Both the position numbers and the translations under genes were made by a program. From an uncultured delta proteobacterium (GTDB lineage Bacteria; Desulfobacterota; Desulfovibrionia; Desulfovibrionales; Desulfovibrionaceae), in the NCBI GenBank assembly GCA_903843965.1, contig CAIMRY010000019.1, positions 1 to 64,000 on the forward strand: a stretch of 64,000 nt of DNA, given 5' to 3'. Position 1 is the first letter of the stretch. Each line of letters begins with the position of its first letter. Of the stretch, positions 60,410 through 64,000 are shown in pieces. The notes under the pieces were generated by a model, which saw only the letters and a list, made by a program, of their open reading frames with translations, searched no databases and had not been told where the DNA came from.

Positions 60410-60783
60410 TCAGTCCTTGTGGTCGATGTCGGCGCAGAGGATGCAGGTCCGGCCGTCCTGGTCCGTGCAGCGGGCCGGGATGGTGATGCAGCGGTTGCCG
60501 GAGGCGAGCGAGATGTACGGCTGGGTGGTGAACGTGGGCAGGCCTGCGGCGACCGGCCTGGGCAAAGGCGCAAAAGCAGACTGCGGCGCGGCAGCCCGGC
60601 TGACAGAGCGGTGGCGGCGGGGGGCAGGCCTTGTGTCAGTCCTTGTGTCAGTCCTTGTGGTCGATGTCCGCGCAGAGGATGCAGGTCCGGCCGTCCTGGT
60701 CCGTGCAACGGGCCGAGAGGGTGATGCAGCGATTGCCGGAGGCGAGCGAGATGTACGGCTGGGTGGTGAACTTGGGCAGGCCC
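60410..60783. repeat. Duplicated 3' end of the EAL gene
   Basis: Bases 60410-60545 and 60648-60783 match at nearly every position, spaced by 238. Both encode the last 45 codons and stop of the EAL protein (FTTQPYISLASGNRCIT...CILCADIDHKD). A short GTCCTTGTGTCA repeat sits at the junction (60631-60660). Confidence 0.9.
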
Positions 60784-61874
60784 GCGCGCAGCGGCAGGAA
60801 GTATTCCTTGAGCGAGTGGTCCGCGCCCACGCGGGCGGGCTCGTAGATGAAGCGCTTGCGTTTGCGCAGCTTGACCGGGTTGCACACCGTGTCGCTGATC
60901 TGCACGCCGCGCGCGTTGAGCACGTACAGGCACTCGATGTTGTCGCACTCGTCGATGAAGCCCGTGAGCAGCCTGTCCAGACCGACCGTGCCCACATTGG
61001 CTATGCGCTCGCACAGGCCCAGCACCAGGGCGTCGTGGCTGGCGTAGAGCTCCTTCTGCGCGGCGAAGCGCTCGGTGGCGCTCTCCTTGAACTTGGCCGC
61101 CAGGTAGTCGATGCGCTCGCTCACCACTTCGGCCTTGGCCATGCGCATGGCCGGGCGGCCGAAGTAGAAGCCCTGGAACACGTCCACGCCGATCTCCAGC
61201 AAACGCAGGATGTCCTCCTGGCGCTCCACGCCCTCGGCCAAAGCCAGGGAGCCCAGGCGCGAGGCCATCTGCACGAAGCTCTTGACCACCTCCAGGCGGG
61301 TCATGTGCCCGGCCACCCCGGAAACCAGGGAGCGGTCCAGCTTCAGCACATCGGGCCGCAAAAGCGGGATGCGGTCCAGGTTGGAGTGCCCGGCGCCCAT
61401 GTCGTCCAGGGCGATGAGAAAGCCGTTCTTGCGGTAGGTGCTGACGAACTCCTCCAGGGCCTTGGAGTCCTTGGCCCGTGACTCCACGATCTCGATGAGC
61501 ACATTGTTGGGGCTGATGCCGAGCGACTTGACTTGGTGGATGAGCGTGCCCGAGCCCACCACGTCGGCGTCGATGGCGTAGCCGTCGACGTTGATGGACA
61601 CGATGAGGCCCCTGTTCTGGGCGTGGATGGGGGCAAAGGCCTCCAGGGCCTTTTTGCGGCACATGCGGTCCAGTTCGAGCAGCCGGTCCGCCTCGCCCGC
61701 CATGCGGAACATCTCCATGGGCGGAATGTCCTCGCCGGGGGCCGTGCAGCGCGCCAGCGCCTCCACCCCGAGCAGGGCCTTGCGCTTGATGGACACCAGG
61801 GGCTGGAACGCGGTGGATATCCACTCGTTCTCCAGGATCTCCCCGATGGTGATGGCTTCGGCGGTTTCGAACAT
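60648..61874 (-). CDS. EAL-domain cyclic-di-GMP phosphodiesterase or binding protein
   Basis: The 408 residues have an EAL domain (1-250) with GVEALARC, IEIVESR, ALDDMGAG, LKLDR and AEGVERQED, close to catalytic consensus. The C-terminal 130 residues form a Cache-like or PAS-like domain (ECLYVLNARGVQISDTVCNP, then YISLASGNRCITLSARC), like that following EAL in YkuI. The C-terminus ends with cysteines (CILCADIDHKD). The gene's 3' end is repeated just downstream. The AT-rich bases 61937-62060 upstream probably hold its promoter. Confidence 0.88.
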   Translation of the reverse strand: MFETAEAITIGEILENEWISTAFQPLVSIKRKALLGVEALARCTAPGEDIPPMEMFRMAGEADRLLELDRMCRKKALEAFAPIHAQNRGLIVSINVDGYAIDADVVGSGTLIHQVKSLGISPNNVLIEIVESRAKDSKALEEFVSTYRKNGFLIALDDMGAGHSNLDRIPLLRPDVLKLDRSLVSGVAGHMTRLEVVKSFVQMASRLGSLALAEGVERQEDILRLLEIGVDVFQGFYFGRPAMRMAKAEVVSERIDYLAAKFKESATERFAAQKELYASHDALVLGLCERIANVGTVGLDRLLTGFIDECDNIECLYVLNARGVQISDTVCNPVKLRKRKRFIYEPARVGADHSLKEYFLPLRAGLPKFTTQPYISLASGNRCITLSARCTDQDGRTCILCADIDHKD

Positions 61875-62084: not shown

Positions 62085-62113
62085 TTGACAGACGCCACGG
62101 GCGCGGGTAGATG
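62085..62113 (+). promoter_or_regulatory. Candidate sigma-70 promoter of the aromatic operon
   Basis: TTGACA (62085-62090) matches the -35 consensus; after 17 bases TAGATG (62108-62113) is a weak -10. Transcription would then begin within a few bases of the leader-peptide ATG at 62122, implying almost no 5' untranslated region. An AT-rich stretch farther upstream may hold another promoter. Confidence 0.5.
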
Positions 62114-62121
62114 CTCACGTC

Positions 62122-62211
62122 ATGAACCTCTTCGCCGCCAACAATACCTCCTTTTGCCAGTATTGGTATTATTGGTTTAGCTGCGCTTGCGGCCGGGGAG
62201 AGGTTTGTTGA
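62122..62211 (+). CDS. Aromatic leader peptide of the attenuator
   Basis: The 29 codons read MNLFAANNTSFCQYWYYWFS and end GRGEVC-stop. Tyr, Trp, Tyr, Tyr, Trp, Phe codons run together at 62161-62178. Scarcity of any aromatic amino acid would stall the ribosome there. No strong ribosome-binding site is present; GGGTAG lies 11 bases ahead, and a four-codon frame (MLTS) ends in ATGA at this ATG. Its place before aromatic-pathway genes and the following terminator make this a regulatory peptide. Confidence 0.85.
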   Translation: MNLFAANNTSFCQYWYYWFSCACGRGEVC

Positions 62212-62280
62212 CGACCAGACGTTAACCAAAGCCTCTTCAGGAAGGGCCGCAGGCGAAAGCCGGCGGCCCTTCTTTAGTTT
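62189..62280 (+). terminator. Transcription attenuator with alternative hairpins
   Basis: Terminator: GAAGGGCCGC (62241-62250) pairs exactly with GCGGCCCTTC (62263-62272), the apex is GGC-GAAA-GCC, and TTTAGTTT follows. A competing pairing joins GCGGCC (62189-62194) and GAGAGG with CCTCTTC and GGCCGC (62232-62250), which would block the terminator. A third stem, GAGG.TTTG.TTGACG with CGTTAA.CAAA.CCTC (about 62199-62236), would form ahead of it. A ribosome stalled at the aromatic codons or halted at the stop would favour different folds. Confidence 0.82.
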
Positions 62281-62346
62281 CAACCGCCGGAAGACAGCCT
62301 GAAAGCCGCCCAACGAGGCGCAACAGCGACCACGCAGGAGGACGCC

Positions 62347-63150
62347 ATGCATCTTGGAAAAGCCATCCGGCTCGAACGCATCTTCAACCGCAACACCAAA
62401 CGCACCATCATCGTGCCCATGGACCACGGCACCACCGTCGGCCCCATCCCGGGCATCGTGGACATGCGCGAGGCCGTGGGCGCGGTGGTCGAGGGCGGGG
62501 CCAACGCCGTCTTGATGCACAAGGGCCTGGTCCGCTGCGGCCACCGCACCCAGGGCAAAGACATCGGGCTTATCGTCCACCTCTCCGCCAGCACCACCCT
62601 CTCCCCCTTCCCCAACGCCAAGACCCTCGTGGGAACTGTTGAAGACGCCATCCGACTCGGCGCGGACGCGGTGAGCGTGCACGTGAACCTGGGCGACGAG
62701 AGCGAGGCCAAGATGCTCACCGACTTCGGCCAGGTGACGAGCATCGCCCAGAGCTGGGGCATCCCTGTGCTGGCCATGGTCTACGCGCGCGGGCCCAAGG
62801 TCAAAAGCGAGTTCGACGCCGAGATCGTGGCCCACTGCGCCCGCGTGGGCGTGGAGCTGGGCGCGGACGTGGTCAAGGTGCCCTACACCGGCGACATCGA
62901 CTCCTTCGGCCACGTGGTCGACTCCTGCTGCGTGCCCGTGGTCATCGCCGGCGGGCCCAAGCTCGACAGCACCAAGGCCTTTTTGCAGATGGTGCACGAC
63001 TCCATCGCCGCCGGGGGCTCGGGCCTGTCGGTTGGGCGCAACATCTTCCAGCACAAGAACCCGGCCCTGCTCTGCCAGGCCCTGTCCAAGGTCGTGCACG
63101 AGGACGAGAACGTCGACGTGGTCATGGAAATGCTCAAAGGCAAGGAATAG
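62347..63150 (+). CDS. 2-amino-3,7-dideoxy-D-threo-hept-6-ulosonate (ADTH) synthase
   Basis: A class I (DhnA-type) aldolase making the first intermediate of the archaeal-type route to 3-dehydroquinate. The 267 residues have [49 protein letters not shown]-like ([11 protein letters not shown]) and [14 protein letters not shown] with the Schiff-base lysine, then IAGGPK. AGGAGG precedes the ATG. It forms an operon with the next gene behind the attenuator, replacing AroF/G/H and AroB. Proteins of this kind are known in Desulfovibrio. Confidence 0.92.
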
Positions 63151-63161
63151 GCGCTTTGATC

Positions 63162-64000
63162 ATGAAACAGATCATCTTCAAGGCCATTCCCTTCCAGAAA
63201 AAGCTGGTCACCCTGGCCCTGGAGTCCGGGGTGGACGCCATCCTGACGGAAAGCGCCAGGGCCGACGACGTGCGCGCGCTGGGCCGCGTCACCGTGCTGA
63301 CCGAGGCCGAGCTGCCCACGCTGCCCCTTGACTCCAAGGCCGACGAGGAGGCCGCCACGGCCAAACTTCTGGCCGGGCAGCAGGTTTCCCTGGCCAAGGG
63401 CTGGGAGATCATCCCGGTGGAGAACATCCTGGCCCAGGCCACGGGCCTGGGGCTGGAGTGCGAGTCCCTTGACCGGGCCGTGCTGGCCGCAGGCATCCTG
63501 GAGCGCGGGGCGGACATGATCGTGGTTTTGCCCGAGGCTGCGGGCGACCTGAAAGCCATCGTGGCCGAGCTCAAGCTCTCCCAGGGCACGGTCGACCTCT
63601 CCCGCGCCGTGGTCACGGCCATTGAGCCTGCTGGCCTGGGCCACCGCGTCTGCGTGGACACCATCTCCATGCTGCGGCGCGGCCAGGGCATGCTGGTGGG
63701 CAACTCCAGCGCCTTCACCTTCCTGGTCCACGCCGAAACGGAATCCAACCCCTATGTGGCGGCGCGGCCCTTCCGCGTCAATGCCGGGGCCGTGCACGCC
63801 TACGCGGTGCTGCCCGGAGACAAGACCTGCTACCTGGAGGAGCTCTCCGCCGGGCGCGAGGTGCTCATCGTCGGGGCCGACGGCAAGACCAGCCTGGCCA
63901 CTGTGGGCCGGGTCAAGGTCGAGGTGCGGCCCATGCTCAAGATCACCGCCGTTGTCACTGCGCCTGATGGGTGCAGGGTCTCCGGCCAGGTGTTTCTGCA
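63162..64000 (+). CDS. 3-dehydroquinate synthase II (partial, runs off the window)
   Basis: Performs the NAD-dependent oxidative deamination and cyclisation of ADTH to 3-dehydroquinate. The visible 279 residues include MKQIIFKAIPFQKKLVTLAL, EIIPVENILAQ, GADMIVVLPEAAGDLKAIVA, then HRVCVDTISMLRRGQGMLVG NSSAF and ESNPYVAARPFRVNAGAVHA, characteristic of the archaeal AroB' family. It starts 11 bases after the aldolase gene. The C-terminal 45 or so residues lie outside. Confidence 0.93.
   Translation, partial: MKQIIFKAIPFQKKLVTLALESGVDAILTESARADDVRALGRVTVLTEAELPTLPLDSKADEEAATAKLLAGQQVSLAKGWEIIPVENILAQATGLGLECESLDRAVLAAGILERGADMIVVLPEAAGDLKAIVAELKLSQGTVDLSRAVVTAIEPAGLGHRVCVDTISMLRRGQGMLVGNSSAFTFLVHAETESNPYVAARPFRVNAGAVHAYAVLPGDKTCYLEELSAGREVLIVGADGKTSLATVGRVKVEVRPMLKITAVVTAPDGCRVSGQVFL

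Follow-up and report, generated by a model that had tools for sequence, protein, structure and literature searches.

A ribosome-mediated transcription attenuator that would respond to the charged tRNAs of Tyr, Trp, and Phe very probably controls a twelve-gene aromatic supraoperon in an uncultured member of the Desulfovibrionaceae (assembly GCA_903843965.1), whose first genes lie at the end of the analyzed window (64,000 nucleotides, positions 1 to 64,000 of contig CAIMRY010000019.1). The mechanism is classical attenuation, and its elements are arranged as follows:

62085..62090, + strand: -35 box TTGACA, exact consensus
62108..62113, + strand: probable -10 box TAGATG, 17-nt spacer, 8 nt 5' of the leader ATG, weak (3/6 against TATAAT)
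62122..62211, + strand: leader peptide ORF, ATG 62122 to TGA 62211, 29 codons
62152..62154, + strand: upstream Phe codon F11, from the codon list of the genus
62161..62178, + strand: regulatory codon run Tyr-Trp-Tyr-Tyr-Trp-Phe (TAT TGG TAT TAT TGG TTT)
62184..62194, + strand: antiterminator 5' strand CGCTTGCGGCC, within leader codons 21-25, 11 bp with 62245-62255, covariation in relatives
62197..62238, + strand: inner hairpin with the leader stop codon, stacking inside the antiterminator in the computed fold
62239..62274, + strand: intrinsic terminator hairpin, 12 bp, an A.G mismatch, 3 bp, and a GAAA loop, running into TTCTTTAGTT at 62270-62279
62245..62255, + strand: antiterminator 3' strand GGCCGCAGGCG, overlapping the terminator 5' arm
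62336..62341, + strand: Shine-Dalgarno AGGAGG of the first structural gene, from the sequence
62347..63150, + strand: ADTH synthase (aroA'), supraoperon gene 1 (TIGR01949, 395.6 bits, cut-off 299.45)
63162..64000, + strand: 3-dehydroquinate synthase II (DHQ synthase II, aroB'), cut by the window end

The original prediction had placed ADTH synthase and DHQ synthase II behind a 29-codon leader containing YWYYWF, and both the ORF (62122-62211, with the run at 62161-62178) and the enzymes are confirmed. ADTH synthase begins 135 nt past the leader stop and scores above its TIGR01949 cut-off, and the part of DHQ synthase II in the window has NF002628 as its best match (443.5 bits, short of the cut-off of 508, as the window end truncates the protein). 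Beyond the window, NCBIfam and tblastn matches give the gene order ADTH synthase, DHQ synthase II, pheA, aroA, tyrA, trpE, trpG, trpD, trpC, trpF, trpB, trpA, with intergenic gaps of at most about 30 nt save that between tyrA and trpE, which measures about 113 nt if trpE starts at ATG. The twelve genes encode enzymes for Phe, Tyr, and Trp, which matches a leader with all three codons. Control of the pathway entry, as had been proposed, holds in that ADTH synthase comes first, but the target is wider and comprises a complete aro-phe-tyr-trp supraoperon. A trp-specific leader in the tyrA-trpE gap was rejected, inspection by eye giving an inverted repeat and no aromatic leader; this repeat in the only sizeable gap (L003:6539-6592) carries no U-tract by eye and is possibly a processing or internal control site. 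An ordinary DAHP synthase entry was likewise rejected, and the pathway apparently has no entry other than the ADTH route, since the sole DAHP_synth_1 match in the genome is KDO-8-phosphate synthase and class II DAHP synthase gave no match in the genome. TrpR also gave no match in the genome. Ahead of the leader, two copies of a 148-bp repeat (60410-60557 and 60648-60795), 93% identical and 238 bp apart, take in the 3' end of an EAL-domain gene on the minus strand (60648-61874) and the sequence just beyond it; the end of this gene seems to be duplicated.

The leader ORF (MNLFAANNTSFCQYWYYWFSCACGRGEVC) stands out from chance. Dinucleotide shuffling of the region upstream of ADTH synthase in the window gave at least six aromatic residues within seven codons of a started ORF only once in 5000 attempts, and the same criterion picked out 86 of 127 real ADTH synthase upstream regions vs a single one of 2540 dinucleotide shuffles and none of 127 antisense strands. 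A locus search kept the best 80 of 468 loci; 136 upstream regions were reduced to 129 distinct ones, two of which (L073 and L086) had no candidate, leaving the 127. Fourteen leaders from the genus all encode the run YWYYWF, with Tyr codons switching silently between TAT and TAC, and their lengths of 29, 31, or 32 codons reflect upstream changes that stay in frame; this conservation of the frame points to translation of the leader. Codon preference in the leaders is the reverse of that in the genes behind them: 98 order-level loci contain TTT 301, TAT 187, TTC 100, and TAC 81 times in the leaders, vs TTT 91, TAT 86, TTC 364, and TAC 234 times in the corresponding ADTH synthase genes. The preference for TTT and TAT may serve either to slow decoding or to leave the run without structure.

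The promoter lies at a nearly fixed distance from the leader. A histogram over 94 distinct order-level leaders places a -35 box of at least 5/6 at a start 35-40 nt 5' of the leader ATG in 85 of them, and within a preset range of 29-38 nt the box was found in 81/94 leaders vs 72/1880 shuffles at the order level. A Shine-Dalgarno-like motif precedes 12 of 106 leader ATGs vs 95 of 107 ADTH synthase starts, counts that take in loci outside the order. From the fixed spacing together with the missing Shine-Dalgarno motif, the leader AUG is predicted to coincide with the 5' end of the RNA or to follow it by a few bases at most; the leader ORF of the window is probably at or near the transcript 5' end, and the pattern suggests that the leader RNA is leaderless in Desulfovibrionales. 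A longer 5' untranslated region is apparent at a few loci (L098, L103, L160, and L174), and outside the order Shine-Dalgarno-like motifs look common before the leaders when judged by eye.

Competing hairpins and an intrinsic terminator had been predicted behind the leader, and they are borne out by the hairpin at 62239-62274 and by an antiterminator that is backed by covariation within the order. The fold of 62085-62346 is more stable than all of 200 shuffles (200/200, z -3.22). The U-tract in the window is imperfect. A generic terminator used genome-wide was ruled out, as the exact core pattern occurs a single time in the genome. Leader codons past the aromatic run, for example those for Ala-Cys-Gly (GCC TGC GGC), are complementary to the terminator 5' arm (GGCCGCAGGC). 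This complementarity exceeds that of 200 leader-segment shuffles (p<=0.05) at 100 of 107 loci, with a median of 11 bp, the 107 being those of the 127 upstream regions with an aromatic score of at least 4 and a terminator of at least 8 bp, plus L025 (aromatic score 3), which was admitted by hand. At the middle position, the leader and terminator bases covary as U-A (43), C-G (27), U-G (13), and A-U (2), and all 85 scorable elements pair, vs a mean of 67.4 and at most 77 paired of 85 in 10000 shuffles, a contrast that, like the other shuffle comparisons here, overstates significance, as related sequences are not independent; the score used fixed motifs without a choice of register, and 19 of 104 elements were unscorable. 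By eye, the terminator base at the covarying site is usually mismatched to the opposite G within the terminator, and the base is therefore apparently kept for the antiterminator. The Cys, Arg, and Ser residues of the leader after the run appear, from the sequence comparisons, to be dictated by RNA pairing.

Arrest peptides need particular residues, and the run varies freely among the leaders (YWYYWF, FYFWYWF, YFFWYFYF, FFFFFFF, YYYYG), while the residues behind it are accounted for by RNA pairing; both points speak against a nascent-peptide arrest, in which the peptide and a free amino acid, rather than empty A-site codons, would stall the ribosome. The precedent for such an arrest is TnaC, a leader peptide described as stalling in the presence of free Trp (PMC8429421), and for the leader described here this reading is very unlikely.

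The spacing of the elements agrees with control by a translating ribosome. Median distances over 100 loci are 6 nt from the last aromatic codon to the antiterminator strand, 14 nt from this strand to the stop, and 27 nt from the stop to the terminator arm, a geometry that would suit a ribosome stalled at the run as well as one that has reached the stop codon, under the footprint that we assume. With an energy model applied to the window sequence, RNA transcribed to 62258 takes the antiterminator fold, at -43.7 kcal/mol when free and -43.9 kcal/mol with a stalled ribosome masked, whereas masking 62190-62222, as by a ribosome at the stop, abolishes the antiterminator and lets the terminator form. 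In the same model, the complete RNA favors the terminator (-51.4 vs -46.0 kcal/mol for the antiterminator), and when transcription has proceeded to 62275, this hairpin is more stable even with the stalled ribosome masked. Since full-length RNA favors the terminator, the antiterminator must win by forming first, and the choice between the two folds would probably be kinetic. The preference of the full-length RNA would also suit a constitutive early terminator, or a small RNA, next to a chance ORF and free of amino-acid control; run, frame, and antiterminator are, however, jointly conserved and the pairing covaries, which makes this explanation extremely unlikely. No strong 1:2 protector hairpin of the kind present in E. 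coli trp was found, the unmasked RNA 62120-62258 folding as the antiterminator in the energy model for this one sequence. Because ribosome-free RNA to 62258 takes that fold, an untranslated leader might read through, unlike that of E. coli trp.

The aromatic supraoperon of B. subtilis is under TRAP, which offers a precedent for an RNA-binding protein, or for a riboswitch overlapping the ORF (TRAP-like or T-box), as the regulator. This is barely credible for the element in the window, where no T-box, riboswitch, or other known RNA family matched Rfam at the gathering threshold and where the leader codons and the terminator explain the conserved blocks. Permissive Rfam settings gave three sub-threshold sRNA matches at the terminator; at gathering scores, the sole match in 12 related loci was a cobalamin riboswitch in L057, far from the leader end.

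In the mechanism inferred here, from transcription start and stalling to the direction of the response, the kinetic choice, and the efficacy of each amino acid, transcription would start at most a few nucleotides from the leader AUG and a ribosome would load on the leaderless RNA. When any one of the charged tRNAs for Tyr, Trp, and Phe is scarce, the ribosome would stall within the Tyr-Trp-Tyr-Tyr-Trp-Phe run or immediately ahead of it, so that 62184-62194 stays exposed and can pair with 62245-62255 once the latter is transcribed; the long antiterminator would then occupy the terminator 5' arm and the polymerase would read on. When all three are plentiful, the ribosome would reach the stop at 62209 and cover about 62190-62222, and the terminator at 62239-62274 would form. 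Of the hallmarks of a leader-peptide attenuator, an ORF with an aromatic run, a terminator between it and the first gene, and a mutually exclusive antiterminator in the right place were found, the antiterminator mainly within the order.

The codons and the comparative pattern suggest that all three amino acids act as signals, although a real attenuator in which only one or two of them matter (Tyr, for example) and the other aromatic codons add little has an appreciable, if minor, probability. Many leaders contain a single Trp codon, and the geometry would make W18 and F19 poor stall sites in the window; a ribosome at the last Trp or Phe codons would, with the footprint assumed here, cover part of the antiterminator strand, and the six codons may therefore not be equal. 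F11 would be well placed for a stall on Phe, which may act mainly through this codon. A partial input of this kind also has a parallel in the C. glutamicum aroR leader, in which, in the accessible text, Tyr is without effect (PMC11802643). Against it stand the persistence of the three codon types in 29 of 30 genomes and 27 genera, while their order and number vary, and the lack of Trp codons in 22 stand-alone leaders (described below); the two observations together suggest that each codon type is selected.

Comparison with other Desulfovibrionales, set out as a test in the original prediction, gave aromatic codons and a terminator that are conserved across the order, so that the refuting condition named there, a lack of such conservation, did not hold. 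The 30 genomes were hand-picked from the 194 of 199 with an ADTH synthase match and cover 27 of 41 genera in six families, the 41 being the genera with a match among 43; ADTH synthase copies at >=66% identity were used (53 of 70 matches), and the 17 at 34-46% identity were left out as they were taken for other aldolases. In 29 of the 30 genomes, the leader of the copy with DHQ synthase II behind it contains codons for Phe, Tyr, and Trp. The exception is G130 (L182), whose leader is free of Trp codons and where 8 kb yielded just ADTH synthase, DHQ synthase II, and pheA. A single Trp codon persists in G024 (L189), though 8 kb there gave no trpE; nor did trpE turn up in the stretches examined in G049, where the contig ends, and G134. 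Four operon copies had no element call, namely the second tandem genes L163, L165, and L183, plus L170, which has a leader and a hairpin with a poor U-tract. Tandem ADTH synthase genes, two behind one leader, occur at the supraoperon head in G181 (L160/L163), G104 (L164/L183), and G088 (L165/L174).

In many genomes, further ADTH synthase genes occur without DHQ synthase II behind them, and the leaders of these stand-alone paralogs differ in their codons. Trp codons are found in 70 of 71 operon leaders vs 0 of 22 distinct stand-alone leaders with a terminator (Fisher 1.9e-20, a value inflated by the relatedness of the sequences). This comparison was made on 124 distinct elements, with ten from outside the order set aside (L077, L081, L083, L084, L087, L090, L091, L095, L100, and L104) and L067 retained, as its operon and its place in the tree fit the order despite the label Desulfobacterales. 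L056 and L094, both with Trp codons, were also set aside, as their contigs end after ADTH synthase; counted as stand-alone, they would bring the tally to 2 of 26 with Trp (undeduplicated). Among the stand-alone leaders, some runs are rich in Phe (FFFFFFF, FFFFFSF), others in Tyr (YYYYG), and others again are mixed (L166, L171, and L175), with Tyr present in some Phe-rich runs and Phe in some Tyr-rich ones. In a quick protein tree of 112 ADTH synthase copies, the Tyr-rich leaders belong to one clade (SH-aLRT 95), and the Phe-rich leaders require five changes, gains or losses, at least three of which are forced by strongly supported branches. In some stand-alone paralogs of the entry enzyme, the input appears, from these codons, to have been re-coded largely toward a single amino acid. 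No element was called at fifteen stand-alone copies; L187 has a leader and a hairpin with a poor U-tract, and no leader was found in the other 14, including the second copy of the source genome. This second ADTH synthase (L002 / L004, G000:C29:53124) is 81% identical to the first. Within the genus of the window, four species carry a Phe-rich leader before the second copy, and in six, the source genome included, none was found.

Similar leaders occur elsewhere in Desulfobacterota. Forty ADTH synthase loci outside the order were picked from among 72 matches listed, and 27 combine a called terminator with an aromatic leader (five or more aromatics in seven codons), some of these terminators being poor (L222) and the leader being distant at L227, while 13/40 are without a leader. 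The antiterminator segments differ from those in the order, and 13 of the 27 pass the complementarity test. By eye, 17 of the 27 leaders carry Trp codons within or beside the run and 19 carry one at any position, and trp genes were found downstream at 1 of the 40 loci (stretches of 1.8-11 kb); Trp codons therefore do not require trp genes nearby, and the sensing of common-pathway products may be the older role.

In E. coli, the trpL and pheL leaders sense one amino acid each and have a Shine-Dalgarno-led leader and a 1:2 hairpin, and single leaders ahead of ilvGMEDA and thr respond to two or three amino acids that have a pathway in common, these inputs being branched-chain amino acids or Thr and Ile rather than aromatic ones. 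The leader peptide with an antiterminator/terminator switch is shared with trpL and pheL, both of which are named in the accessible text of PMC11802643. In C. glutamicum, the aroR leader before aroF (DAHP synthase) contains Phe-Tyr-Phe and responds to Phe limitation, with Tyr supply being without effect; it likewise works by ribosome-mediated attenuation and controls the enzyme that opens the pathway, but as far as the accessible texts describe it, its motif contains no Trp and the enzyme is an ordinary DAHP synthase (PMC11802643; PMC4046766). Leaderless attenuator peptides, with the start codon at the 5' end of the RNA, are described in the available portions of reports on S. meliloti trpL and Streptomyces leaders, which belong to other phyla and sense mostly single amino acids (PMC7298713; PMC8079986).

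The element had been thought undescribed, and this holds in part. A putative attenuator before the D. vulgaris supraoperon, taken from Merino's database, appears in Table 7 of a 2005 paper that calls for experimental work and gives the order as aroA'>aroB'>aroQ-pheA>aroF>tyrA>[trp operon] (PMC1173090); the gene order is as in the window, and from this description it is probably the same element in a relative. In the accessible text, however, the account names no leader peptide (the word "leader" is absent from the main text) or amino-acid input, and no codons, conservation, or paralog leaders (PMC1173090). A search of the open literature, with subscription papers outside its scope, found no leader with three aromatic codon types, no account of this element, and no described Desulfovibrio leader-peptide attenuator; the available text of PMC545781, on delta-proteobacteria, does not contain "leader," "aromatic," or "trp," and that of PMC2965389 does not contain "Desulfo" or "aromatic." As far as this search reaches, the three-way codon input ahead of a complete aromatic supraoperon, the breadth of the family, the probable leaderless start, and the re-coded isoenzyme leaders are new.

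On balance, the evidence favors a family of attenuators in Desulfobacterota, probably leaderless in Desulfovibrionales, that would control the supraoperon as an OR sensor with three inputs (Phe, Tyr, and Trp) and would be re-coded in stand-alone paralogs, giving Phe- or Tyr-controlled isoenzymes without a repressor protein. If this is true, the family would be an RNA counterpart of the AroG/AroF/AroH scheme of E. coli. The operon leaders with Phe, Tyr, and Trp codons and the Phe-rich, Tyr-rich, or mixed leaders of the stand-alone isoenzymes form a natural codon-swap series, which makes the attenuator input directly testable by codon exchange, and dozens of short ORFs before ADTH synthase genes are pointed to as regulatory. 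For bacteria that use ADTH synthase and DHQ synthase II, the element suggests how one short RNA might balance three end products.
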